Shown: piece by piece, positions 50,601-64,000 of the stretch
Layout of the letters: each line of letters starts with the position of its first letter
How positions within the stretch are numbered: position 1 is the first letter of the stretch
Origin: Aurantiochytrium sp. KH105
Lineage: Eukaryota; Sar; Bigyra; Thraustochytrida; Thraustochytriidae
Length of the DNA: 64,000 nucleotides
Direction: 5' to 3'
NCBI GenBank assembly: GCA_003116975.1
Contig: BGKB01000218.1
Span: 1 to 64,000, forward strand
The notes under the pieces: model-generated
The model's input: only the letters and a program-made list of their open reading frames with translations
Told to the model about the DNA's origin: nothing
The model's database searches: none
Position numbers and translations under genes: made by a program

Positions 50601-53600
50601 TGGCGAGCTGACTCGCGTCAATGCCGACCGCACAGTGAATATTCTCTACGATGACGGCGACACCGAACGCTCTGTTCGTCCGTCACTTCTTCGGCGCTAC
50701 AAGCGGCGTGGGAGGCGACCTGACGTCCCAGAGCTTTCCTCTGGTTCCGACTCTGACGGTGAGGATCGAGGTCGCAAGCGGTCTCGCGATGAAGATGGTA
50801 ATATGCGACGCGGCGATCGCGTAGAGGCGCGCTTTAAAGGCGGCTCGAAGTGGTACAAGGGCCGGGTAACTCGTGTGGGTGCTGGCGGCAGAGCCTTTGA
50901 TATTGATTACGACGACGGCGACAAAGAGCGCAGTGTTCCTGCGTCGAGGGTTCGACGACTCGACAGTGGATCCTCGAGAGATCAAGATGACGATGCTCTT
51001 GCTGAAGGCGACCGCGTCGAAGCACGATTCAAGGGTGGCTCCAAATGGTACAAGGGAAAAATTGTTCGTGTTAACGCGGACGGAAGCTACAATATTGATT
51101 ACGACGATGGTGACCAAGAGCGCCGAGTTGCTGCAAGCAAGGTCCGCAAGCTCGGCGGTAGCAATGGGGGTGGTCGAAGAAGTAGTCCTCGACGTGGTGG
51201 CCGAGACGATATTGATACTGAAGATGATGGTGGTGGCACACACCGCGAAGGCGACCGCGTTGAAGCTCGCTTCAAAGGTGGGTCGAAGTGGTACAAGGGC
51301 AAAATCACACGCGTCAATGCCGATGGCACCTTCAATATTGACTACGATGATGGTGATAAGGAACGTCGCGTTGCTTCGAGCAAGGTGCGCAAGCTTGGAG
51401 GTGGCGGAGGAGGTCGAGGGAGCCCCCGTCGTGGCGGACGTGACGAATTTGATACGGAGGATGATGCCGGTAGCGGTCTTCGCGAGGGTGATCGCGTGGA
51501 AGCTCGCTTCAAGGGTGGGTCGAAATGGTACAAGGGCAAGATCACGCGCGTCAACGCCGACGGTAGCTATAACATCGACTACGACGATGGTGACCAAGAG
51601 CGTCGCGTTGCGTCAAGCAAGGTGCGCAAGCTTGGCGGCGGTGCTGGAAGAGGAAGCCCTCGGCGAGGTGGTCGTGATGAATTTGATACCGAAGACGATG
51701 CCGGTGGCGCTTTACGCGAGGGCGATCGTGCGGAAGCTCGATACAAGGGCGGGTCAAAATGGTATAAGGGCAAGATTTCACGCGTCAACGCCGATGGTAG
51801 CTATAACATCGACTACGACGATGGTGACAAGGAGCGCCGTGTTGCAGCAAGCAAAGTCCGTAAAGTTGGAGGCGGAAGTCGAGGAAGCCCTCGTCGCGGC
51901 ACACGTGATGAATTTGATACTGAAGATGATGCCGGTGGCAGTTTTCGCGAGGGTGATCGTGTGGAAGCTCGGTACAAGGGCGGGTCGAAATGGTACAAGG
52001 GCAAAATTACTCGCGTCAATGCAGATGGCAGCTACAACATCGACTATGACGACGGCGACCAAGAACGTCGTGTCATTCCAAGCAAGGTGCGCAAGCTCGG
52101 CGGCGGTCGAGGTAGCCCTCGGCGAGGTGGCCGCGACGAATTCGACACCGAAGACGACGCAGGTGGCGCTTTGCGTGAAGGTGATCGTGTGGAAGCCCGG
52201 TACAAGGGCGGATCCAAGTACTACAAGGGCAAAATTAGCCGCGTTAATGCCGATGGAAGCTACAACATCGACTATGATGATGGCGACAAGGAACGGCGTG
52301 TTGCTTCGAGCAAAGTTCGCAAGCTTGGTGGAGGTGGACGAAGCAGCCCTCGCCGAGGTGGACGAAGCAGCCCTGGTGGTCGTGGGGACATCGATACAGA
52401 AGACGATGCTGGCGGCATTCTGCGCGAGGGAGATTGCGTGGAAGCTCGGTACAAGGGTGGAGCCAAGTGGTACAAGGGCAAGATCACTCGCGTCAATGCA
52501 GATGGCAGCTACAACATCGACTACGACGACGGCGACCAAGAGCGCCGCGTTGCATCAAGCAAGGTGCGCAAGCTTGGTGGCGGTGCTGGAAGAGGAGGAA
52601 GTCCTCGGCGAGGTGGTCGTGACGAATTTGATACCGAAGACGATGCAGGTGGAGTCTTGCGGGAAGGCGATCGTGTGGAAGCTCGATACAAGGGTGGATC
52701 CAAGTACTACAAGGGCAAGATTAGCCGTATCAACGCTGACGGGAGCTATAATATTGACTATGACGATGGCGACCAAGAGCGCCGCATTGCACCGAGCAAG
52801 GTGCGTAAGCTCGGAGGAAGCCCTCGTCGAGGCGGGCGGCCGAGTTCGGATACCGAAGACGACGCCGGCGGAGTCTTGCGCGAGGGTGATCGTGTGGAAG
52901 CTCGGTACAAGGGCGGCTCCAAGTACTATAAGGGAAAAATTAGCCGCGTTAATGCTGACGGAAGCTACAATATCGACTATGACGATGGCGACCAGGAGCG
53001 ACGTGTTGCGGCGAGCAAGGTGCGCAAGCTTGGAGGGGGTGGAGCGAGAGCAGGAAGTCCTCGTCGAGGCGGGCGTGATGAACTTGATACTGAAGACGAC
53101 GCTGGTGGCGCTTTACGCGAAGGCGATCGCGTGGAAGCTCGATACAAGGGCGGCTTTAAGTGGTACAAGGGCAGAATATCTCGTGTCAACGCTGACGGGA
53201 GCTACAACATCGATTATGACGACGGTGACCAAGAGCGGCGTATTGCACCAAGCAAAGTTCGCAAGCTTGAAGGTAACAAACCTGGGCGAGGCGGGCGCCC
53301 AAGCTCGGATACGGAAGATGACGCCGGTGGCGTCTTACGTGAAGGCGATCGCGTCGAAGCTCGATACAAGGGCGGATCCAAGTACTACAAGGGTAAGATC
53401 AGCCGCGTTAACGCGGACGGTAGCTACAATATTGACTACGATGACGGCGACCAAGAGCGACGTGTCATTCCCAGCAAGGTTCGTAAGCTTGGTGGTGGTG
53501 GAAGAGGAAGTCCTCGGCGAGGTGGTCGTGACGAAATTGATACCGAAGACGATGCCGGTGGAGTCTTACGTGAAGGCGATCGCGTGGAAGCTCGATATAA

Positions 53601-55245
53601 GGGCGGATCCAAGTACTATAAGGGCAAGATTTCAAGGGTCAACGCTGACGGAAGCTATAATATTGACTACGATGACGGCGACCAAGAGCGCCGCATTGCA
53701 CCGAGCAAGGTTCGTAAGCTTGGAGGAAGTCCTCGACGAGGTGGTCGCGACGAGTTTGATACCGAAGACGATGCCAGTGGCGCTTTGCGCGAAGGCGATC
53801 GAGTTGAAGCTCGGTACAAGGGCGGATCTAAGTACTACAAGGGCAAGATTTCCAGGGTCAACGCTGACGGCAGCTACAATATTGACTACGATGACGGTGA
53901 CCAAGAGCGACGTGTCATTCCCAGCAAGGTTCGTAAGCTTGGTGGCGGTGGCGGTGGCGGTGGTGGAAGAGGTAGCCCTCGAAGAGGTGGAGGCGGAAGG
54001 CCGAGTTCGGATACAGAGGGAGATGATGCCGGCGACGTTTTGCGCGAAGGCGATCGTGTCGAAGCTCGGTACAAGGGCGGATCCAAGTATTACAAGGGCC
54101 AAATTTCACGGGTCAACGCTGACGGCAGCTACAATATTGACTACGATGACGGCGATAAAGAACGGCGCGTCATACCAAGCAAGGTGCGCAAACTTGGCGG
54201 CGGCGGCGTGAGAGGTGGCCCACGCCGAGGAGGCCGAGATGACGTTGATACGGAAGACGATGCTGGCGGCGCCTTGCGTGAAGGCGATCGTGTGGAAGCT
54301 CGGTACAAGGGAGGATCCAAGTACTACAAGGGCAAGATTTCTCGTGTCAACGCCGACGGTAGCTACAACATTGACTACGATGACGGCGACCAAGAGCGAC
54401 GCGTCATTCCCAGCAAGGTTCGTAAGCTTGGTGGTGATGGCGGAAGTGGCGATTTTGGACGGGGCAGCCCTCGTCGAGGCGCACGACCGAGTTCAGATAC
54501 GGAAGATGATGCCGGTGGCGTTTTACGCGAAGGCGATCGTGTTGAAGCTCGGTACAAGGGCGGATCCAAGTACTACAAGGGGAAGATTAGCCGTGTCAAC
54601 GCTGACGGCAGCTACAATATTGATTATGATGACGGCGATCAAGAGCGACGCGTTGCATCGAGCAAAGTCCGCAAGCTCGGAGGAAGTCCGCGCCACACTG
54701 GACGGCCGAGCTCGGACACGGAGGATGACTTTGAGGCGAAATTCCGGGAAGGCGACCGTGTGGAGGCTCAATTCAAGGGCGGGGCCAAGTATTACAAGGG
54801 TATCATTACTCGCGTCAACGCCGACGGAAGCTGCAACATTGACTACGACGACGGCGACCAAGAGCGTCGCGTTGCGCCGAGCAAGGTTCGCAGATTGGGC
54901 GATTCAGGGTCAAGTTCGCGACAGTCTGTCCGGCCGAGCTCTGCCAACATGGAGGAGAGCTCGAACTTGCGTGTGGGAGACCGCGTGGAGGCGCGCTTTC
55001 GGGGCCAGGACCAATGGCATCCGGGATCGATTTCCTGTGTGAACCGCAATGGAACGTACGACATTGCCTATGATGATGGCGACGCGGATCAGTCACTGAG
55101 TCGATCATTTATTCGAAAGATCGAGACGAGCCCGAGGTCAGGTTCTCCTCGTCGGTCTGGTCGTGTTGTTCAGAGTCGGACGAGTTTCTCGCGGGACGAT
55201 AGCAGTGCGGGCCGGCAGCTTCGACGCGGCAGGTCAGATCTTTGA
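47692..55245 (+). CDS. Pseudo-cytidine deaminase / SAM / EF-hand-like / 20x Tudor-like repeat protein
   Basis: 2,517 residues in one exon. Residues about 121-245 align with cytidine deaminase: LDDLIDIAVNACKNG, VRYGAALLTRGG and GCNIESNETTLSTSAEKMA. The zinc ligands are lost: the usual CAER is SAEK and PCxxC is PSGAS, while the catalytic Glu remains. A SAM domain follows at about 306-373 (VRDWAVRHVLTWLDQE). Two EF-hand-like pairs sit near 403-470 and 590-660. A basic His/Lys/Arg region and a long Ser/Glu/Asp tract lie at about 703-830. From about 953 to 2475 come 20 repeats with core GDRVEARYKGGSKYYKGKIS and NIDYDDGDQERR, typical of Tudor/Agenet-like barrels. The repeats are joined by SPRRGGR and DTEDDAGG linkers. 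The role is unknown; a multivalent reader or scaffold is inferred. Confidence 0.88.
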   Translation: MKDVEMLEAEAMRVLQRIRAIPKTPIPAGKKSKNRTMTNDFRRNSLENGSYVEEAREEGSSALARVKMGLDAEQAIAVRAYVDRTSDTVIPGASSPPALREEHVARLRELKNWAQGRNEQLDDLIDIAVNACKNGVAPLTGVRYGAALLTRGGFVYSGCNIESNETTLSTSAEKMAILKAISAGENEFECMVLTWDQTENPRFPMPSGASRQYLAEFGDFEVVLVRADPARTRKELTTAELLPQMPSARATQGDGHSLGSPGMIRGPRGRSPHSSPRRSALRITEKLRSPGPAHVRKVSVPDIHATPVRDWAVRHVLTWLDQECDLPSYKYNFQEASVNGSMLLQLAPQDMQELLGVHHPLHLSKLQKGLQELRRREVMESGVEENDMAGVVDALRENEIVLVARLKEAFDQADTQGHRLCGVEQLHGALAALGFEIPKVELQTWVDSFGQGAPGLSFAQFVQAFFASTRASSSELGLCVTSPRRSTPGEDKNDRLLLREDGHVRCRENRAYSSWVEEQRAQSAQRVLGGGTVGSDAADTKLQRGRNHELALWLKGEDGAETSNRVKSFMRLRKRPALALNISQEVGTEDFARLKRIFDRADRDHVGEITRHEAARALSHTGMRVSAVEVGQYLRLQGLDSATPLDLFEFARAFAYFVKQRDIALASETLENPTLETVGSRNTVEISSSNKRWPVAYDPTGFLLKARKHRKHHKHRKTSKRRGRSPRSKRRARRSRSWSSSSGSSSSESSEDSSSDSASDSSESETGSSESDSGSSGQSSGSDSSRTSTSASESDSDSASTSSSASSSRSHRRRRKESRSRHGKKSKTEKRKPVVMGRHVVRKVERAFEKHQKSGSRGQLAMNNVLMAFKSIPRSGRSKPLPSADELRTYFRKEDIYYYVTRKQFVRAYARLCYDVVDEDYEVKSTSRSSSARRRRDGSGSDNASGSDAETWRKGDIVEARARGSSSWRRGELTRVNADRTVNILYDDGDTERSVRPSLLRRYKRRGRRPDVPELSSGSDSDGEDRGRKRSRDEDGNMRRGDRVEARFKGGSKWYKGRVTRVGAGGRAFDIDYDDGDKERSVPASRVRRLDSGSSRDQDDDALAEGDRVEARFKGGSKWYKGKIVRVNADGSYNIDYDDGDQERRVAASKVRKLGGSNGGGRRSSPRRGGRDDIDTEDDGGGTHREGDRVEARFKGGSKWYKGKITRVNADGTFNIDYDDGDKERRVASSKVRKLGGGGGGRGSPRRGGRDEFDTEDDAGSGLREGDRVEARFKGGSKWYKGKITRVNADGSYNIDYDDGDQERRVASSKVRKLGGGAGRGSPRRGGRDEFDTEDDAGGALREGDRAEARYKGGSKWYKGKISRVNADGSYNIDYDDGDKERRVAASKVRKVGGGSRGSPRRGTRDEFDTEDDAGGSFREGDRVEARYKGGSKWYKGKITRVNADGSYNIDYDDGDQERRVIPSKVRKLGGGRGSPRRGGRDEFDTEDDAGGALREGDRVEARYKGGSKYYKGKISRVNADGSYNIDYDDGDKERRVASSKVRKLGGGGRSSPRRGGRSSPGGRGDIDTEDDAGGILREGDCVEARYKGGAKWYKGKITRVNADGSYNIDYDDGDQERRVASSKVRKLGGGAGRGGSPRRGGRDEFDTEDDAGGVLREGDRVEARYKGGSKYYKGKISRINADGSYNIDYDDGDQERRIAPSKVRKLGGSPRRGGRPSSDTEDDAGGVLREGDRVEARYKGGSKYYKGKISRVNADGSYNIDYDDGDQERRVAASKVRKLGGGGARAGSPRRGGRDELDTEDDAGGALREGDRVEARYKGGFKWYKGRISRVNADGSYNIDYDDGDQERRIAPSKVRKLEGNKPGRGGRPSSDTEDDAGGVLREGDRVEARYKGGSKYYKGKISRVNADGSYNIDYDDGDQERRVIPSKVRKLGGGGRGSPRRGGRDEIDTEDDAGGVLREGDRVEARYKGGSKYYKGKISRVNADGSYNIDYDDGDQERRIAPSKVRKLGGSPRRGGRDEFDTEDDASGALREGDRVEARYKGGSKYYKGKISRVNADGSYNIDYDDGDQERRVIPSKVRKLGGGGGGGGGRGSPRRGGGGRPSSDTEGDDAGDVLREGDRVEARYKGGSKYYKGQISRVNADGSYNIDYDDGDKERRVIPSKVRKLGGGGVRGGPRRGGRDDVDTEDDAGGALREGDRVEARYKGGSKYYKGKISRVNADGSYNIDYDDGDQERRVIPSKVRKLGGDGGSGDFGRGSPRRGARPSSDTEDDAGGVLREGDRVEARYKGGSKYYKGKISRVNADGSYNIDYDDGDQERRVASSKVRKLGGSPRHTGRPSSDTEDDFEAKFREGDRVEAQFKGGAKYYKGIITRVNADGSCNIDYDDGDQERRVAPSKVRRLGDSGSSSRQSVRPSSANMEESSNLRVGDRVEARFRGQDQWHPGSISCVNRNGTYDIAYDDGDADQSLSRSFIRKIETSPRSGSPRRSGRVVQSRTSFSRDDSSAGRQLRRGRSDL
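50550..55130 (+). repeat. 20 in-frame tandem Tudor-like coding repeats
   Basis: Units are about 73-85 codons (220-255 bp). By eye, repeats 1, 2 and 20 are the most divergent and the middle ones are nearly identical in the core. Two subtypes alternate: K-W-Y-K-G in repeats 2-7, 9 and 12, and K-Y-Y-K-G in 8, 10, 11 and 13-19. The segment after the core varies among VASSKVRK, VAASKVRK, VIPSKVRK and IAPSKVRK. This suggests stepwise unequal exchange of multi-unit blocks. Because each unit is a multiple of three and free of stops in other frames, long shadow frames appear on both strands. Confidence 0.95.
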
Positions 55246-56043: not shown

Positions 56044-57264
56044 AGACCGTACGATCTATCCACTTCTCCGTCGCCTCGAACGCACGCAGACTCGGCAGCG
56101 GAAGCCCGGGCGAAGGCGCTCTGCCCCGCGGTGTGGCGGGCGGGGAGTCCAGCGGCGTCGGCGCTCCTGCACGGTCCGGGGGTCTTGGCCTCGCTCTTGA
56201 CTCGCCTCCGACTCGCGGTCCTGGTGGGACGAGTTTTTGGATTCCTGGACACTCCGTGAGGCCCTGCGAGGCAGCGCTTGCTGACGATTGCAGACCGTAT
56301 CTCCGAGCACGCTCGCGGCAGCCCGGCGCGGGGAAGCCGAAGACATGCGGCCTCGGACCTTGACAAGAGAAGGCGGGATGCAGGCAGGCGTGACATGCGC
56401 AGATCAGCACGACTCGACACAACACGACATAACGCAAAGATGATGGACTTGAAAGACGGCGGGCAAACTTGATGAAGAAGGGAAAACAAGTTGAACTTGG
56501 CCAAGGTGGGCGGAGACATCTGGCTCAGGAAGCGCGGCAAGAAGTTAGACGGCATCGCAACACGACACAAAACGACACAACGCAACGCAAGATGATGGGC
56601 ATGAAAGATGGCGGGCAAACTTGATGAAGACGGGAAAACAAGTTGAACTTGGCCAAGGTGGGCGGAGACATCAGGCTCAGAAAGCGCGCCAAGAAGCGAG
56701 ACGGCGTCGCAACACGTCACAACACAAGACAACGCAAGACAACGCAAGATGATGGACATGGAAGACGGCGGTTGTAAATCAACATTGGCTCAGGGAGCGC
56801 GCCAAGAAGCGAGACGGCGTCGCAACACGACACAAGACAACACAAGACAACACAAGACAACACAAGACGACACAACAACACAAGACAAGACAACACAAAA
56901 CAACTTGAACACAACGCAAGATGATGGGCATGAAAGACGGCGGGCAAACTTGATGAAGTCGGGAAATCGACATTGGCCCAGGAAGCGGCCAAGAAGCGAG
57001 ACGGCGTCGCAACACGACACAACACAACACAAGACAACACAAGACAAGACAACACAAAACAACTTGAACACAACGCAAGATGCTGGGCATGAAAGACGGC
57101 GGGCAAACTTGATGAAGTCGGGAAATCGACATTGGCCCAGGAAGCGCGCCAAGAAGCGAGACGGCGGCGCAAGCTGGTGTCCTCGCAATCCTGGAATCCT
57201 CTTGCGGCGGCTCGGAGGCGCGCGAAGGCGGGCGGGTGGAGGCGCGGAGGCAGCGCGCGGGAGG
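56044..57264. other. Divergent intergenic region holding an imperfect repeat array
   Basis: 1.22 kb between the small membrane protein gene (-) and the dehydrogenase (+). The left 400 bp is unremarkable; the rest is the repeat array listed separately. The dehydrogenase frame stays open leftward to 56749 through the repeats, encoding Thr/Gln/Asp-rich low complexity that is not accepted as protein. Confidence 0.55.
56446..57175. repeat. Five imperfect tandem copies of a ~100-160-bp unit with ACAACACAAG spacers
   Basis: Copies start near 56446, 56591, 56748, 56919 and 57078. Shared blocks are GATGATGGGCATGAAAGACG, GCGGGCAAACTTGATGAAG and GCCAAGAAGCGAGACGGCG. Between copies lie runs of GACACAACACAAGACAAC-type sequence of different length. 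The third copy is internally deleted and carries GGCGGTTGTAAATCAAC. The last copy ends about 90 bp before the dehydrogenase ATG. Confidence 0.85.
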
Positions 57265-58647
57265 ATGCTGGGCAGGGCCGCGAGGGCCGCGAGCGCCGCG
57301 CCCGCGGGCGTGCGGGGCGGCGCAGGCCGCGCGCGAGGGCTCCATGCGGGCGGCGGCACGAGCGAGCTGGCGCGCGCGATGCAGGAGGCAGGCGTGAAGC
57401 GCGCGTACGTGGCGTGGCGCGGCGGGCGCGTGGAGGCGAGCCACCCGGTGGTGGAGCCGCTGCGCGAGTTGATGGAGCGGGACGAGGTCGACTACGACGA
57501 GCACGAGGCGGTCTTCCTGGAGGCGCACAAGGACTGCGTGTTTGGGGCCTTTCTCTGGCGCACCGCGCGCGGCCAGGGCTGCGGCGGCATCCGGCTGCGG
57601 CCGTACGAGTCCACCGAGGCGTTCTTGCGGGATGGGCTGCGCCTGGCCATCGGCATGGGCCGGAAATCGGCACTCGCAGGGCTCTGGTGGGGCGGCGGCA
57701 AGGGTGTGATTGCCCGCGGCGAGGACGACGATCTCGTGAACGACCCAGCGAGTCGCGTGGAGCTGCTCCGGGCCTACGGCGCCTTCATCACGAGTCTGCG
57801 CGGCGCCTACGTGGCTGCCGAGGACGCGGGCATTTCGGTCGCGGACATGGACCACGTGTTTGAGACGACGCGCTACACGACGTGCATCAGCCCTTCGCTT
57901 GGAGGCAGTGGCAACCCTAGCGTGCCGACTGCCCTCGGCGTGGTCGCGGGCATGGAGGGCGCGCTCGCACAGCTAGGCATGGGCACGCTTCAGGGCAAGA
58001 CCGTGGCTGTGCAGGGCTGCGGCAATGTCGGTGGCCCGATGATTCGCTATCTTTTGGAGCGTGGCGTTGCAAAGGTTTCCGCCGTCGACATTGACGCTGC
58101 ACGCGTGGCTGCGCTGGAGCAAGAGTGCGCCGACATTGCCGACGGCCGTCTCTCCGCGTCTGTCGATGCTTCTACCGCCATTCTCGCGCAGGAGGCCGAC
58201 ATTGTCTCGCCGTGCGCCTTTGGCGGCGTGCTCAATGCCGACACCGTGCCCAAGATTCGAGCCAAGATCGTCTGCGGCGCGGCAAACAACCAGCTCCTTG
58301 ACCCGACCACGGACTACGGAATGCAAGCTCAGGGTATTACGTATTGCCCGGACTTTGTCGTGAACCGTATGGGCATTGTCAACTGTGCCAACGAGCAGTA
58401 CGGTCGCGTGGGCAATCCGGGTGGCGTCGAGGATCCGCTGGTGTCGCGCCATCTTGGAACGGATTTTGCTAGTTCTATCCCCAACGCTGTCTCCGCGATC
58501 ATTGCACGTGCCGAAGCCGAGGGATCCACGACGAACGAGGTCGCGAATGGGATGGCCAACGAGAGCGCCGCTCAGTTGCACCCGATTCTCGGTCATCGCA
58601 CCAAAGACATTGTGGATCGCCTCATCAAGGACGGCTGGGCAGCGTAG
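57265..58647 (+). CDS. Glu/Leu/Phe/Val dehydrogenase family enzyme, probably leucine dehydrogenase-like, mitochondrial
   Basis: 460 residues from MLGRAARAASAAPAG at 57265. The first 30 residues are Arg/Ala/Gly-rich without acids, a good mitochondrial presequence. Catalytic domain: SALAGLWWGGGKGVI carries the active-site Lys motif and YVAAEDAGISVADMDHV the conserved Asp region. Nucleotide-binding domain: GKTVAVQGCGNVGGPMIRYL (Rossmann GxGxxG), VDIDA, then IVCGAANNQLLD and YCPDFVVNRMGIVNCANE. The AAEDAGI pattern and total size fit amino-acid dehydrogenases of the leucine/valine/phenylalanine type better than glutamate dehydrogenase. The expected reaction is NAD-dependent oxidative deamination to a 2-oxo acid. 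Substrate choice is uncertain. Confidence 0.9.
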   Translation: MLGRAARAASAAPAGVRGGAGRARGLHAGGGTSELARAMQEAGVKRAYVAWRGGRVEASHPVVEPLRELMERDEVDYDEHEAVFLEAHKDCVFGAFLWRTARGQGCGGIRLRPYESTEAFLRDGLRLAIGMGRKSALAGLWWGGGKGVIARGEDDDLVNDPASRVELLRAYGAFITSLRGAYVAAEDAGISVADMDHVFETTRYTTCISPSLGGSGNPSVPTALGVVAGMEGALAQLGMGTLQGKTVAVQGCGNVGGPMIRYLLERGVAKVSAVDIDAARVAALEQECADIADGRLSASVDASTAILAQEADIVSPCAFGGVLNADTVPKIRAKIVCGAANNQLLDPTTDYGMQAQGITYCPDFVVNRMGIVNCANEQYGRVGNPGGVEDPLVSRHLGTDFASSIPNAVSAIIARAEAEGSTTNEVANGMANESAAQLHPILGHRTKDIVDRLIKDGWAA

Positions 58648-58958: not shown

Positions 58959-59030
<72 letters not shown>

Positions 59031-59091: not shown

Positions 59092-60459
59092 ATGCTTGGA
59101 GCTCGCGGGCGGTCCTCCCAACGTGGCAATGTCAGAGGTTGGCATGCGGATGTCTGGTTGGCGATCGCGCTTGCGATAGCGACTGCTCAATGCGCAAGCG
59201 CAAAGGGATTCATCTCCTTTCCACCCTCGCGCAAGATGATGGTCCTCGAAGCCGGCAACCGGCCGCTGCCCAACAATGCAGGCGGCGCGGAACTCGAGTT
59301 TCACAAGGGCCACGGCCTCTGCGGCGCCCTAGGAAAAGATGCCGACCTCGATGTTAATGCTACAATCTCGCCTAATGCCTTCTTTACCGAAGGAGACGTC
59401 ATTGACGTCGACGTGACACTCGAGTCGCGTCGCAAGGGCCACTTTGAGTTTAGGCTGTGCTCGCTTGACGCCAATGACTTCTCACAGGAGTGCTTGAACG
59501 AGCATGTGCTGAAGTTCGACGCTACTTTTACCGCTGCGAGCTACTCTGGACAAATGGAGGACGCCATGCGGTGGTCTCCGGCAGATCTCTTGGAAAACGA
59601 GGCTTGCAAGAGCGACGACGGCACGCCGTTGGGGTCGTGCTGCAACCATGGAGGGGCGTGTACAGATGGAGCGCATAACAGACACCGCTGGACTGTGCCG
59701 TCATCTGCGGCGGGTCCGATGTACACGATGCGTCTTGTGCTGCCAAGGGGTGTGAGGTGCGAGCATTGCGTTCTTCAATGGTTCTACCAAACAGGCGACG
59801 GCCGTGGCAGCTTTCACGGGTATCCCGAAGGGTTCTGGGACTGCGCCGACGTAGCAATTCGAGAAAAGACTGTCTTGGTTCCAAGTGAAGTGCAGCGGCG
59901 CAAGCTGTTGGCGATACTCCCGGCAAGCGCAAAAGCACGAGAGCTGGGCAGCGATGATAGCGATGTTGAAGTGGGCATCGATTTATCACTTTTAGGCGAA
60001 ACAACATCAGCTCCCACGAACGCGCCTAGCTTTGCATCGACATCCGCTCCGACGACGGATCAAGCGCAAATGCCATCGTCGAACGAAACTTCGATTGATG
60101 ACGAAGTCTCGGATGACGGAAGTGGATCGGTGAACGTTGATGACGATGAAGATAAAAGTGAGGATGATGCTACGAGCTCAGCCGCCACTGTATCTACGGC
60201 GCTTATCGTAGGCGCTTCGGTGTCAGCAGCAGGGGCCGTTCTTATGCTTGTCGCGCTTTTGCGCATGCGCCACAAGAGGTCGCATGGCGTCCTAGAAGCT
60301 ATTCCTGTGTCGTTGCATGCGGAAGGACCAGTCAACGCGTATCCGAGCTCTTTATCAAGGGTACGCGGCTTGTTTTCGAGGTCTCGAGCGACGGACAGAC
60401 ACGCCTTCACGGCCAAGGAAGTCGAGGCGGTTGTGATTGAGAGTCCGGTAGACCATTGA
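59092..60459 (+). CDS. AA15-LPMO-like membrane-anchored protein, copy 1
   Basis: 455 residues. A signal peptide (WLAIALAIATAQCASA) is followed by KGFISFPPSRKMM, where AA15/AA10 lytic polysaccharide monooxygenases begin HGxxxxPPxR. The domain continues with FHKGHGLCG, EFRLCSLDANDFSQECLNEH, an insert GSCCNHGGAC, and CEHCVLQWFYQTGD...FWDCADVAI, the AA15 C-terminal pattern. The N-terminal His of the copper brace is Lys, and the second His position (ANHYG in AA15) reads SRRKG, so oxidation of chitin or cellulose is doubtful; glycan binding is more likely (inferred). An acidic Ser/Thr linker, a membrane helix at about 369-395 and a basic tail ending AKEVEAVVIESPVDH follow. Residues about 36-252 are almost identical to copy 2. 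Confidence 0.85.
   Translation: MLGARGRSSQRGNVRGWHADVWLAIALAIATAQCASAKGFISFPPSRKMMVLEAGNRPLPNNAGGAELEFHKGHGLCGALGKDADLDVNATISPNAFFTEGDVIDVDVTLESRRKGHFEFRLCSLDANDFSQECLNEHVLKFDATFTAASYSGQMEDAMRWSPADLLENEACKSDDGTPLGSCCNHGGACTDGAHNRHRWTVPSSAAGPMYTMRLVLPRGVRCEHCVLQWFYQTGDGRGSFHGYPEGFWDCADVAIREKTVLVPSEVQRRKLLAILPASAKARELGSDDSDVEVGIDLSLLGETTSAPTNAPSFASTSAPTTDQAQMPSSNETSIDDEVSDDGSGSVNVDDDEDKSEDDATSSAATVSTALIVGASVSAAGAVLMLVALLRMRHKRSHGVLEAIPVSLHAEGPVNAYPSSLSRVRGLFSRSRATDRHAFTAKEVEAVVIESPVDH
59198..59848 (+). repeat. Homogenised ectodomain tract, partner of 61086-61736
   Basis: About 650 bp nearly identical to the tract 1,888 bp downstream; I count about eight differences by eye, two of them changing an amino acid (RRKG/HRKG and GDGRGS/GDGLGS). 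Similarity stops sharply in the signal-peptide region and just after the DCAD motif. Confidence 0.85.
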
Positions 60460-61006
60460 AGAATCATCCTTTGACAGGGCAATAAATTGACAATAATTTT
60501 TTTTCTTTTCCTCTTTGCCGCAATGGTTACCTGATCCTCTCTGTGGCGTTTCTCCATTACTCCACGCGACTCTTTGCTTCCTTTCCATTGTCAGCGGCCT
60601 GCACCTGGGACCATTTTATCTTCCTCTGTTCCCTCCTTATAGCTAAAAGGACTTTGTGTTGTTTTTGTTTTACAATCACCGCACCGGACATAGGTAATTG
60701 GCCTATACGTGACTTTGAAAGACCTGTGACCGAAACGGTGTGTACCACACGCGCAAAAGACTGGATTTCGGGTTGGAAGCGGCTGCGGCCGCTTGCGAGA
60801 TTGTGCGAGATTCCGAGATTGTAAGTGGATGAGCGAGCGAGCGAGCGAGCGAGCAAGCAATTCAAGCGCGCAGCCTGGTCCACTTTTGTATGGGTCCGAC
60901 GATTCCTCCGAGCAGCGGGGAACTCGCGTATTTTCGCGTGTTGACCCTGGAGGGAGCGGAGTCGGCAAACCAGCATTGAAGGCTAGGCGAAGGAGAACTG
61001 AGGCAG
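60460..61006. other. Intergenic between AA15-like copies 1 and 2
   Basis: 547 bp, with a (GAGC)n run at about 60831-60853. It bears no visible similarity to the region upstream of copy 1 apart from short repeats. No gene is seen. Confidence 0.5.
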
Positions 61007-62506
61007 ATGCGTCGGCGCCTGCAGCGCGTGCGCGCAGCTGCTAGACTGCTGGGAGTGCTTGCCCTGGCCAGCGCGCATCATGCTAGCGCAAAGGGATTCA
61101 TCTCCTTTCCACCCTCGCGCAAGATGATGGTCCTCGAAGCCGGCAACCGGCCGCTGCCCAACAATGCAGGCGGCGCGGAACTCGAGTTTCACAAGGGCCA
61201 CGGCCTCTGCGGCGCCCTAGGAAAAGATGCCGACCTCGATGTTAATGCTACAATCTCGCCTAATGCCTTCTTTACCGAAGGAGACGTCATTGACGTCGAC
61301 GTGACACTCGAGTCGCATCGCAAGGGCCACTTTGAGTTTAGGCTGTGCTCGCTTGACGCCAATGACTTCTCACAGGAGTGCTTGAACGAGCATGTGCTGA
61401 AGTTCGACGCTACTTTTACCGCTGCGAGCTACTCTGGACAAATGGAGGACGCCATGCGGTGGTCTCCGGCAGATCTCTTGGAAAACGAGGCTTGCAAGAG
61501 CGACGACGGCACGCCGTTGGGGTCGTGCTGCAACCATGGAGGGGCGTGTACAGATGGAGCGCATAACAGACACCGCTGGACTGTGCCGTCGTCTGCGGCG
61601 GGTCCGATGTACACGATGCGTCTCGTGCTGCCAAGGGGTGTGAGGTGCGAGCATTGCGTTCTTCAATGGTTCTATCAAACAGGCGACGGACTTGGTAGCT
61701 TTCACGGGTATCCCGAAGGTTTCTGGGACTGCGCCGATATTACCATCGCTCGAAAAGAAGACTTGCCAGACTCGATCGAGGCAGGACAGATGAAAAGACG
61801 CTTAACTTTTGAGGACCAGTTTGCTCGAAGAAGGACCGAAACCGGTTGCTGGTCTGCAGTTGGTGATGACCACACATTTTGCAGGACATATAAATGCAGA
61901 CAAAATTACATTAATGATGGGCTCTGCACGACAGATAATCCTTATGATGAGCAAGAAAGCTCTGAAGCCCCAACGGCATCGCCAACAGCGGATAGCACTT
62001 CGGAAGGGAATGGAAGTGAAGGAGAAAATTCCCAAGGACCAACTTCGCCGCCATTAACGCCAGCGCCGACGATTGAACACAATTCTACAGAGAATAATGG
62101 TGAACAAGAAGAATCGGGGGTACCAACCCCAGCGCCAACGCTTGCTGGAAAAGTCAATGATGAAGATTCTGGTAAAAACAGCGATCAAGACGAGGAGGAC
62201 TTTGAATCAGATGATCGTCAGGACTCGTCAAAATCCATGATTCTCGGGGCGTCGGCTGCAGCAGTTGGGGCTGTAGCAGTTGCTGCCAGTGTGTTCTATG
62301 TGTATCGAAACAAGCACACCCATGTGCGAGAAGCTTTACCGGTTGCAATGCACGCAGTCGATGTCAACGATGACGACGCACCTCCGAAGAGTGGAGCCTT
62401 GGGCAAACTTCGGCGAAGTCTTTTTAGAACACCACGCAGCGATGCACAGAACGTCTTTATGGCCAAAGAGGTCGAAGCTGTTGTCGTAGCAAGTCCCGTG
62501 CCGTGA
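61007..62506 (+). CDS. AA15-LPMO-like membrane-anchored protein, copy 2
   Basis: 499 residues. The signal peptide (LLGVLALASAHHASA) differs from copy 1, but from KGFISFPPSRK to WDCAD the two ectodomains are almost the same. The mature start again lacks the His1 of LPMOs; an HH pair sits four residues before KG, but it is too far from PPSR to act as the canonical N-terminal ligand. The site equivalent to the second copper His reads SHRKG. The stalk differs from copy 1: it has an extra Cys-containing segment (TGCWSAVGDDHTFC, YKCRQNYINDGLC) and PT/TPAPT repeats. A membrane helix lies at about 410-437 (SMILGASAAAVGAVAVAAS). The tail ends AKEVEAVVVASPVP, as in copy 1. A cell-surface glycan-binding role is inferred. 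Confidence 0.85.
   Translation: MRRRLQRVRAAARLLGVLALASAHHASAKGFISFPPSRKMMVLEAGNRPLPNNAGGAELEFHKGHGLCGALGKDADLDVNATISPNAFFTEGDVIDVDVTLESHRKGHFEFRLCSLDANDFSQECLNEHVLKFDATFTAASYSGQMEDAMRWSPADLLENEACKSDDGTPLGSCCNHGGACTDGAHNRHRWTVPSSAAGPMYTMRLVLPRGVRCEHCVLQWFYQTGDGLGSFHGYPEGFWDCADITIARKEDLPDSIEAGQMKRRLTFEDQFARRRTETGCWSAVGDDHTFCRTYKCRQNYINDGLCTTDNPYDEQESSEAPTASPTADSTSEGNGSEGENSQGPTSPPLTPAPTIEHNSTENNGEQEESGVPTPAPTLAGKVNDEDSGKNSDQDEEDFESDDRQDSSKSMILGASAAAVGAVAVAASVFYVYRNKHTHVREALPVAMHAVDVNDDDAPPKSGALGKLRRSLFRTPRSDAQNVFMAKEVEAVVVASPVP
61086..61736 (+). repeat. Homogenised ectodomain tract, partner of 59198-59848
   Basis: Second member of the near-identical pair; the flanking signal-peptide and stalk coding sequences are diverged, which points to gene conversion or strong selection rather than a simple recent duplication. 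Confidence 0.85.
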
Positions 62507-63020
62507 GACACTAGGCCTACTATCGTACGTATACCATCATGTTCATAAGCTCAAAATCAATGTTGCAGTTATTATCGGTGGGTGCCCCTACTTGTCTGTC
62601 TGTGTGAATGATTATCGGTCGCGAAAAAATCCGGAGGGAGCGCCTTGGCCGTTCCCTCGCTCGGGGCACAAGCCTCGTGTGTCGCGCAGGCAAATCCAAG
62701 TAAGACAAGCTAGCTGTCTAGCACACGCAGGCTGGCTGATGTGAGTCCATTTTTATCCTTTTTTCTTCTTCTTTTCTAGCTGCGGTATGGCAACTTTCTT
62801 TCGTTTGGCTGCTTTTGCAACTTCCGCTTCCAAGCCACAATGATGCGGCGGCCTTAGCGCAACATTCACGCGCTCGCGCGCTCGGACGATGGCAGCTACG
62901 GCGCAAACAGGAAACGCCCCTGGGCTAGGTCTTCACCGCCGTCGCAGTCGCCGCAGCCGCACGCGGTTCTGCGCACGCGCTGCAGACGGGCAGCCTGGCA
63001 AGCACTCCGCGGGTGAGGAG
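62507..63020. other. Intergenic between AA15-like copies 2 and 3
   Basis: 514 bp, with a short TTTTTTCTTCTTCTTTTC tract near 62759-62776. No gene is seen. Confidence 0.5.
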
Positions 63021-64000
63021 ATGGCGATGTCGGCGAAGGCAATACGTCCCGTGGGGGCGACGAACTCGAAGACTTTGGCCGTGGTGGCTGCGCTCGTGCT
63101 GAGCGCAGCAGTAGGCGCGCGAGGCGAAGGGTTTTTGCTGTTTCCACCTTCGCGGAATCTTGTATACAATGGCGGCTCGCGAGGTGAGAACGGAATTGAC
63201 GACATGGATGCCGGAGGCGCTCAGGCGGAATTCTCAAATGGCCATGGGTTGTGCGGAGACCAAAGTTGGCGACGCGAGATGCAATCGCCGAATGAATTCG
63301 GCGGCGGATTACCTCTCGTCACGTACGCGGAAAATAGCACGATCGAGATCAATGTGACGATCACCACACACCGTAAGGGCTACTTTGAGTTCAGGCTCTG
63401 CGACCTCGACGACGACGGTCTCGATCTGAACGAAGCTATTACGCAAAGCTGTTTGAACGAATACGTGCTCGAGTTCGACATTGAGTACACGGAATCAAGC
63501 TATAAGGATCAGATGGAAGATGGCCGGACTTCGCCGGCAGATTACAAAGGCAGCGGAGGTCTGTCATCCTCCTCGGAAGCGTACAAGTGCAGAAACTTGT
63601 ACGCTTCCCCAACAGGCAGTTGCTGCAACAATGACGGAGATTGCTCGCAACCGAATAGCAACAAGGAACGCTGGGTTGTACCGCTTGCTGAGGCTGGGCC
63701 AGTTTACACTATGCGATACAGTCTTCCAGAAGGCGTAACCTGCGATCGCTGCGTGCTCCAATGGTACTATCAGACCGGCGACGATGAGATTGCATACGAT
63801 GCTCCGAACGGGCTTGCAACGTTTCTCTACCCCGCAGGAACATGGAATTGCGCTGATATCGCGATCGTTCCAGAGAGCGCAAATATCTCCACTCCTGTCA
63901 ACGTGAGTAATTTCTACAAGAGTGTCCTCCTTTCGGGGGAGGAAGAATCAATTGAGATTGCTAGCGGACAAGAAAGTTGCCAGTCCGCAACTGGTGACGA
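63021..64000 (+). CDS. AA15-LPMO-like protein, copy 3 (partial, runs off the window)
   Basis: An open frame from ATG 63021 (MAMSAKAIRPVGATNSKTLA) continues without stop to the last base, about 326 codons. A signal peptide (LAVVAALVLSAAVGARG) precedes EGFLLFPPSRN, so His1 is Glu-Gly here. It aligns through FSNGHGLCG, THRKGYFEFRLCDLDDD, CLNEYVLEFDIEYTESSY, GSCCNNDGDC and CDRCVLQWYYQTGDD to WNCADIAIV. It is clearly diverged from copies 1 and 2 and has an insertion (DLDDDGLDLNEAITQ). The stalk begins at the window end, including ESCQSATGDD, similar to the Cys segment of copy 2. The membrane helix and tail are expected beyond 64000. Confidence 0.85.
   Translation, partial: MAMSAKAIRPVGATNSKTLAVVAALVLSAAVGARGEGFLLFPPSRNLVYNGGSRGENGIDDMDAGGAQAEFSNGHGLCGDQSWRREMQSPNEFGGGLPLVTYAENSTIEINVTITTHRKGYFEFRLCDLDDDGLDLNEAITQSCLNEYVLEFDIEYTESSYKDQMEDGRTSPADYKGSGGLSSSSEAYKCRNLYASPTGSCCNNDGDCSQPNSNKERWVVPLAEAGPVYTMRYSLPEGVTCDRCVLQWYYQTGDDEIAYDAPNGLATFLYPAGTWNCADIAIVPESANISTPVNVSNFYKSVLLSGEEESIEIASGQESCQSATGD

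Follow-up and report, generated by a model that had tools for sequence, protein, structure and literature searches.

Can a lytic polysaccharide monooxygenase (LPMO) domain that has lost its copper ligands be kept by a cell, and in what capacity? The question is raised by three tandem genes (genes 1 to 3) at the end of a 64,000-nucleotide window, positions 1-64000 of contig C218 (BGKB01000218.1) in the assembly (76 Mb, 367 contigs) of the thraustochytrid Aurantiochytrium sp. KH105. An original prediction, made from the letters of the window and its open reading frames, had described the gene products as type-I membrane glycan receptors built on heads like those of auxiliary activity family 15 (AA15) LPMOs. 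The sequence features behind it are confirmed and strengthened by the analysis reported here, with the corrections given below, and as a whole that interpretation is partly supported. In the reading that we favor, with a probability of roughly 0.6, the genes would encode non-catalytic surface receptors or adhesins, in which an AA15 LPMO domain is carried on type-I membrane proteins.

The AA15-like heads expected in all three genes were recovered by profile searches. The parts of genes 1 to 3 inside the window match Pfam LPMO_10 at 40.7, 41.7, and 41.2 bits (cut-off, 23), and gene 3 read whole scores 34.4 bits. Against PDB sequences, the sole match to gene 2 at E values up to 10 is 5msz, the AA15 protein of Thermobia (TdAA15A; E = 2.2e-14). 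A profile of seven heads recovers the same structure at 5.6e-26, with one other, insignificant, match (E = 0.98). These seven aligned heads have 51 invariant columns, 10 of them Cys, and the LPMO fold therefore seems to be kept. A whole-genome LPMO_10 search gave 10 matches, five loci in each of two haplotypes, and a protein search with an intact head returned the identical ten places; the match counts are lower bounds. The assembly looks diploid because a second contig copy exists for 5/5 LPMO_10 loci and for 3/3 compared neighboring genes, the two copies being 91-98% identical by segment. Genes 1 to 3, with alleles on contig C8, account for six of the ten sequences. The fourth locus (C128/C134) encodes a protein with a signal peptide and a membrane helix whose brace columns are both Arg; its tail of ∼190 residues, which contains two similar stretches (LPRG[IL]MPEVEI), is unlike that of genes 1 to 3. 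The fifth locus encodes a secreted protein in which HGYL directly follows the cleavage site, the second site reads AHHWG, and the axial site reads FWNCAD; "intact" refers here to the residues His1, His91, and the axial Phe. No membrane helix was detected in the whole C81 copy of this protein or in the first 790 residues of its C10 allele.

The copper site was compared column by column, in a numbering checked on the 5msz alignment (Ala89, His91, and Tyr184, residue names from PMC9156745). The first mature residues of genes 1, 2, and 3 are K, K, and E, as had been proposed, and they share an alignment column with His1 of the intact paralogue. Cleavage sites were judged by the (-3,-1) rule for signal-peptide cleavage, not by a predictor program, and the residues preceding position 1 fit that rule. 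Cleavage of gene 2 after ...ASA, which would expose His-His, was judged unlikely, because that site lies 5 residues short of the domain and closely follows the hydrophobic core. The second histidine site had been read as RRKG or HRKG. The column of TdAA15A His91 is indeed Arg in 8/8 membrane-type sequences, but RRKG is confined to the C218 allele of gene 1 (the C8 allele reads HRKG), the residue ahead of the Arg being His in the other 7/8. Between loci, the heads agree at one-third to one-half of their residues, so the invariance of this Arg is weak evidence by itself. The axial residue is Phe in genes 1 and 2; in gene 3 and in the fourth paralogue it is Thr. Loss of the brace thus extends to every gene of the cluster but not to every AA15 in the genome: both histidines are absent from 8/8 membrane-type sequences, and both are present, with the axial Phe, in 2/2 alleles of the secreted paralogue. 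The proposal that the heads are non-catalytic agrees with this replacement of both brace histidines in a genome that also has an intact-brace AA15, and is well supported by the alignments; the heads presumably contain no copper.

Copper might nevertheless be held by substitute ligands, for example, the His before the Arg or the N-terminal amine, in which case the proteins would be unusual enzymes or copper handlers resembling X325/Bim1. Besides the frequent His at that position, the behavior of CWR-1, an LPMO-domain protein of Neurospora, is compatible with this idea, as its single His-to-Ala variants are reported still to bind copper (PMC9550227). X325/Bim1 proteins are likewise described as having an LPMO-like fold with no polysaccharide-degrading activity detected, but they keep the His-brace copper site and have a role in copper uptake (PMC7924993). 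The cluster heads have no such site, with Lys, Glu, or Arg in both columns, and the axial Thr of gene 3 and the fourth paralogue also speaks against copper; we consider substitute ligation quite improbable.

The type-I orientation assigned in the original prediction was borne out by hydropathy, in which 8/8 membrane-type sequences possess one strong hydrophobic segment besides the signal peptide, followed by basic residues. A single-pass type-I topology, with the tail on the basic side, is thus well supported as a sequence-based assignment. Two blocks recur in the tails of genes 1 to 3: EA[IL]P next to the membrane and AKE[VI]E[AT]VV[VI].SPV at the terminus. Pairwise identities of the terminal 13-mer are 11/13, 10/13, and 10/13, values reached by 0/2000, 0/600, and 0/600 shuffles. 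Conservation of this tail had been proposed from genes 1 and 2, with its presence in a homologue named as the test; gene 3, whose tail lies past the window and had not been seen, carries the motif AKEIETVVIASPV, but the fourth membrane paralogue has none. When the gene 2 tail was searched as protein against the genome, the seven matches were gene 2 and gene 1 in each haplotype, the C8 copy of gene 3 (E = 0.69), and a single Ser-rich protein matched twice by chance. The C218 copy of gene 3 is absent from this list. The search found the motif in no other gene, although short motifs in unrelated proteins would escape it.

The same anatomy would suit membrane adhesins or wall tethers that bind glycans for attachment alone, with a tail that anchors the protein to the cortex or sorts it and sends no signal inward. 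We regard this alternative as the less probable one. The Ser/Thr/Asp-rich stalks are under relaxed constraint, and the tails match no Pfam domain above the cut-off. The small Cys module of gene 2, found also in gene 3 by protein search, resembles two modules of the intact secreted paralogue, by a pattern drawn from these same sequences. Attachment alone accounts less readily for the 13-residue and juxtamembrane motifs, which call for a specific partner since they are kept while the tails are otherwise 42-51% identical (DNA).

Constraint was estimated from the ratio of nonsynonymous to synonymous divergence (dN/dS) between alleles by NG86, with YN00 as a second estimate where computable. The heads of genes 1, 2, and 3 gave dN/dS values of 0.141, 0.144, and 0.201; the intact secreted paralogue gave 0.108, and three neighboring genes gave 0.137, 0.132, and 0.350. 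The stalks gave 0.37-0.70, and the membrane-plus-tail parts gave 0.61, 0.105, and 0.121. Fisher tests on the three heads yielded P values of 1.7e-6, 2.4e-7, and 2.3e-5 (0.032 for the fourth paralogue). YN00 ratios were higher, at 0.20-0.24 for the heads of genes 1 to 3 and 0.61-1.06 for their stalks. The ratios and Fisher tests together argue that the heads are maintained proteins, and by these estimates they are under purifying selection. The values bear directly on whether the genes are decaying copies whose brace was lost in a drift toward pseudogenes. Lost catalytic residues and near-identical head copies would fit such decay, but the frames of all three genes are open, and in the same order, in both haplotypes, the head ratios are low with significant tests (P from 2e-7 to 2e-5), and the tails are conserved. 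Decay is therefore disfavored, and we think it very improbable.

Between genes 1 and 2, head identity is 97.9% in C218 and 98.3% in C8; between the alleles of each gene (C218 versus C8), it is 96.0% and 95.3%. Outside the heads, the stalks and membrane-plus-tail parts of the two genes are 41-51% identical (DNA), and synonymous change is mostly saturated or not estimable. The two genes were aligned from 300 bases upstream of each start through the stop. The stretch 59197-59831 contains zero sites that distinguish the loci in both haplotypes, versus 363 across the whole alignment, and all 21 haplotype-specific sites common to genes 1 and 2 fall within it. The slightly wider stretch 59195-59850 also has three locus-specific edge sites; a single site shows the cross pattern, and another eleven vary in other ways. 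With gene 3 as the outgroup, 8 of the 21 sites are derived in C8 and 7 in C218, and 6 could not be polarized. The identity of the heads, together with haplotype-shared sites derived in each haplotype, indicates that gene conversion has acted on the heads in both haplotypes, over a tract that would run from the signal cleavage site to near the head end. In principle, the two heads could also have been merged by an error of assembly.

Near-identical converted heads on diverged tails, the arrangement of paired receptors, were found for genes 1 and 2 only, in one diploid genome. Among animal paired receptors, CD300A and CD300C are described as having similar outer domains that gene conversion keeps alike, together with diverged signaling parts (PMC12447643). 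They differ in their immunoglobulin-family heads and opposing outputs, whereas the tails of genes 1 and 2 share a motif. By analogy with the animal pairs, one head on two tails suggests one ligand with more than one output. Simple tethering, by comparison, needs no two tails on one head, which counts further against attachment as the sole function.

The converted heads could instead serve protein-protein recognition, as self/non-self or mating tags in which glycan binding is vestigial. The model for such a function is CWR-1, an AA11 protein whose LPMO domain acts in allorecognition independently of catalysis, even with mutated histidines (PMC9550227). The eight haplotype-specific amino-acid differences common to both heads would suit a tag, as would the non-aromatic residues of genes 1 and 2 at two N-terminal positions, those of TdAA15A W14 and Y18. 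CWR-1, however, is described as an active chitin polysaccharide monooxygenase that keeps its brace and works with a separate multi-span partner, CWR-2, whereas the cluster heads are AA15-like and brace-less. Moreover, head divergence between alleles resembles that of the three neighbors (dS, 0.11-0.15 versus 0.05-0.12; dN/dS, 0.14-0.20 versus 0.13-0.35), so this one diploid genome gives no sign of diversifying or balancing selection. A recognition tag is, on this evidence, unlikely.

A number of points weigh against the surface-receptor reading, among them the copper retained by single-histidine variants of CWR-1. The W14 and Y18 equivalents of genes 1 and 2 are non-aromatic, so a chitin-binding face is not assured; in the model of the oomycete protein AaAA15A, Tyr19 and Tyr26 are said to line the binding face (PMC8393829). 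AlphaFold2 models of the three window heads, mostly strands, were too uncertain for comparison (predicted local distance difference test, 37.9; predicted template modeling score, 0.38). Between alleles, the gene 1 tail shows only weak constraint (dN/dS, 0.61). The fourth membrane paralogue lacks the shared tail motif, as judged by inspection, and its head, borne with that different tail, is less constrained (dN/dS, 0.372). Conversion can be a mechanical by-product of tandem copies rather than a selected process. Pattern searches of viral and prokaryotic collections gave 83 and 23 matches, of which tblastn confirmed none. Finally, in the best head tree, gene 3 pairs with the intact paralogue at a support of 68, and the fourth paralogue joins this pair at 60. 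Genes 1 and 2 are left apart, a topology that would imply several brace losses, each ending in Arg. Approximately unbiased test P values were 0.81 for this tree, 0.30 for a single membrane clade, and 0.15 for genes 1 to 3 as a clade, and a single membrane clade is thus not rejected by the head data. The tail common to genes 1 to 3 speaks for a common membrane-anchored ancestor of these three.

The nature of a ligand was approached through the chitin genes of the genome. GH18 gave three matches. Chitin_synth_2 gave none in this genome, with control matches in bacteria only, and Chitin_synth_1 gave none in this or any control genome. The presence of GH18 and the missing Chitin_synth_2 match hint that chitin may be foreign material to this organism, and chitinases have been reported from labyrinthulomycete secretomes (PMC10101102). 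This hint is tempered on two sides: absence of chitin synthesis is unproven because the controls matched only in bacteria or nowhere, and some thraustochytrids are reported to produce no chitinase (PMC6050695). Given the Lys/Arg patch, sulfated or acidic glycans are an equally possible ligand.

The coordinates of the cluster, its neighbors, and the other LPMO_10 loci are collected in Table 1. The start of gene 3 is, by inspection, probably M45 or M47 of its open reading frame, not the first ATG.

Table 1. Features of the brace-less AA15-like cluster, its flanking genes, and the paralogous loci (residue columns in 5msz numbering)
Feature	Position	Strand	Details
Gene 1: signal peptide, brace-less AA15-like head, Ser/Thr/Asp-rich stalk, one transmembrane helix, 65-residue tail	59092..60459	+	455 amino acids
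Gene 1 allele, second haplotype	C8:586451-587818		
Gene 1 mature head	59203..59859	+	Lys1, Arg91, and axial Phe
Gene-conversion tract	59197..59831	+	From site patterns; gene 2 equivalent 61085-61719
Gene 1 membrane helix, then RMRHKR	60205..60261	+	Kyte-Doolittle 2.37; hydropathy peak residues 372-390
Gene 1 tail motif AKEVEAVVIESPV	60412..60450	+	
Gene 2: architecture as gene 1, plus Cys-rich module in stalk	61007..62506	+	499 amino acids; allele on C8
Gene 2 mature head	61091..61747	+	Lys1, Arg91, and axial Phe
Gene 2 small Cys module	61847..61927	+	Protein search
Gene 2 membrane helix, basic residues after	62240..62296	+	Kyte-Doolittle 2.10
Gene 2 tail motif AKEVEAVVVASPV	62462..62500	+	
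Gene 3	62889..64000 in window; ends 64736 on C218	+	615-amino-acid open reading frame
Gene 3 mature head	63126..63866	+	Glu at position 1 (63126), His91 column Arg, axial column Thr
Gene 3 transmembrane helix and tail motif AKEIETVVIASPV	Beyond window end, C218	+	
Fourth membrane-type paralogue	L013:820-2301 (contig C128)	-	
Fifth locus, secreted, intact brace	C81/C10; C81 copy L043:599-3151		
Glu/Leu-dehydrogenase-like gene	57265-58647		Flanks cluster before gene 1
ABC-F-like gene	65355-67724		Flanks cluster after gene 3; named by inspection

Several other features were observed near the cluster and elsewhere in the genome. A perfect CAAG microsatellite of 17.5 copies (58960-59029) lies directly upstream of gene 1, and minisatellites of 152 and 159 bases, rich in ACAAC-like sequence (56419-57172), lie upstream of the Glu/Leu-dehydrogenase-like gene. 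A tandem array at 51004-54892, with about 16 copies of a ∼219-237-base unit, resembles Tudor/agenet repeats; its related counterpart on C8, at 580930-583119, gives a strong Tudor_5 score in 9 stretches. The C-terminal domain of the secreted paralogue had by eye the look of a GH19/lysozyme-type domain, for which there is no Pfam match. Its matches to PDB and to PHROG endolysins were insignificant (E = 0.7 and 0.4), and because none of the three collections gave a significant match, the domain was left unnamed; an NCBIfam search returned matches below threshold only. On separate contigs, matches resembling polyunsaturated fatty acid synthase reach at best 930 bits, under the 1010-bit cut-off, and weaker matches occur in 11/14 control genomes. 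These matches agree with a labyrinthulomycete origin without proving it. On contigs C27 and C56, around 295000-315000, several ketosynthase-like matches fall in open frames of 5708 and 5831 amino acids that probably encode a large polyketide synthase.

The earlier remark that no system of this form has been described needs to be narrowed, as membrane AA15s, a brace-less AA9, and recognition by CWR-1 are on record; it holds for the combination, in that no paper joining these features was found among those listed. An AA9 protein that lacks the histidine brace was reportedly described by Frandsen in 2019 (doi 10.1074/jbc.RA119.009223). With Arg in place of His1, the brace-less AA9 is said to be secreted and fungal, with no membrane helix or tail, unlike the cluster proteins. 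Characterized AA15 LPMOs (TdAA15A, 5msz; AaAA15A, PMC8393829) have homologous heads with the same Cys positions, CVLQW and NCAD blocks, and mature N-terminus column. The cluster proteins differ from them in the replacement of His1 (Lys/Glu, or Arg in the fourth paralogue) and His91 (Arg), in the membrane anchor, and in the conserved tail. In the crayfish-plague oomycete A. astaci, every full-length AA15 is reported to retain both histidines (PMC8393829). Closer in architecture are the insect group II LPMO15-2 proteins, with an AA15 domain and a predicted C-terminal membrane span (PMC9156745), and AA15s with a glycosylphosphatidylinositol membrane anchor (PMC8615602). Both are presented as catalytic domains, and the available passages of those papers mention neither a common tail motif nor conversion of the head. 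A brace-less membrane AA15 receptor was not found among the titles and beginnings of abstracts listed from the open-access literature. Each ingredient thus has a precedent; what appears to be new is that they occur together, with a conserved tail and with heads subject to conversion.

Under the surface-receptor reading, the outer domain would descend from an AA15 LPMO and would have exchanged its role as a copper enzyme for that of a binding head. Charged side chains in place of the copper histidines (Lys, Glu, or Arg at position 1 and Arg at the second ligand) may form a charged binding patch. The head, raised above the cell surface by the stalk, would most likely bind a polysaccharide or glycoprotein that is borne by food particles or by the wall of the cell itself. 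The conserved tail could dock a cytoplasmic partner for signaling, endocytosis, or anchoring. Genes 1 and 2 would present the same head, its identity kept by conversion in each haplotype, on different stalks and tails, probably giving one ligand two outputs. The roles of "glycan receptor" and of "signaling or sorting motif" named in the original prediction, like the ligand class, signaling, and localization given here, are inferred from gene anatomy and conservation. Going a step further, the locus may tentatively be viewed as a protist paired-receptor system, in which a retired LPMO head with cationic side chains is kept by conversion on two receptors beside a third, diverged member, one glycan cue feeding more than one intracellular route.

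To our knowledge, surface receptors for particulate food are poorly known in such protists. An LPMO_10 or AA15 annotation is commonly read as denoting an enzyme. Here, one intact secreted AA15 stands beside a larger membrane-type set that conserves its heads but not the copper site, and LPMO folds therefore appear to be stably reusable as binding or sensing heads. If the proposed signaling is true, the cluster would provide a protist with glycan receptors derived from LPMOs and would extend receptor pairing by gene conversion beyond animals.

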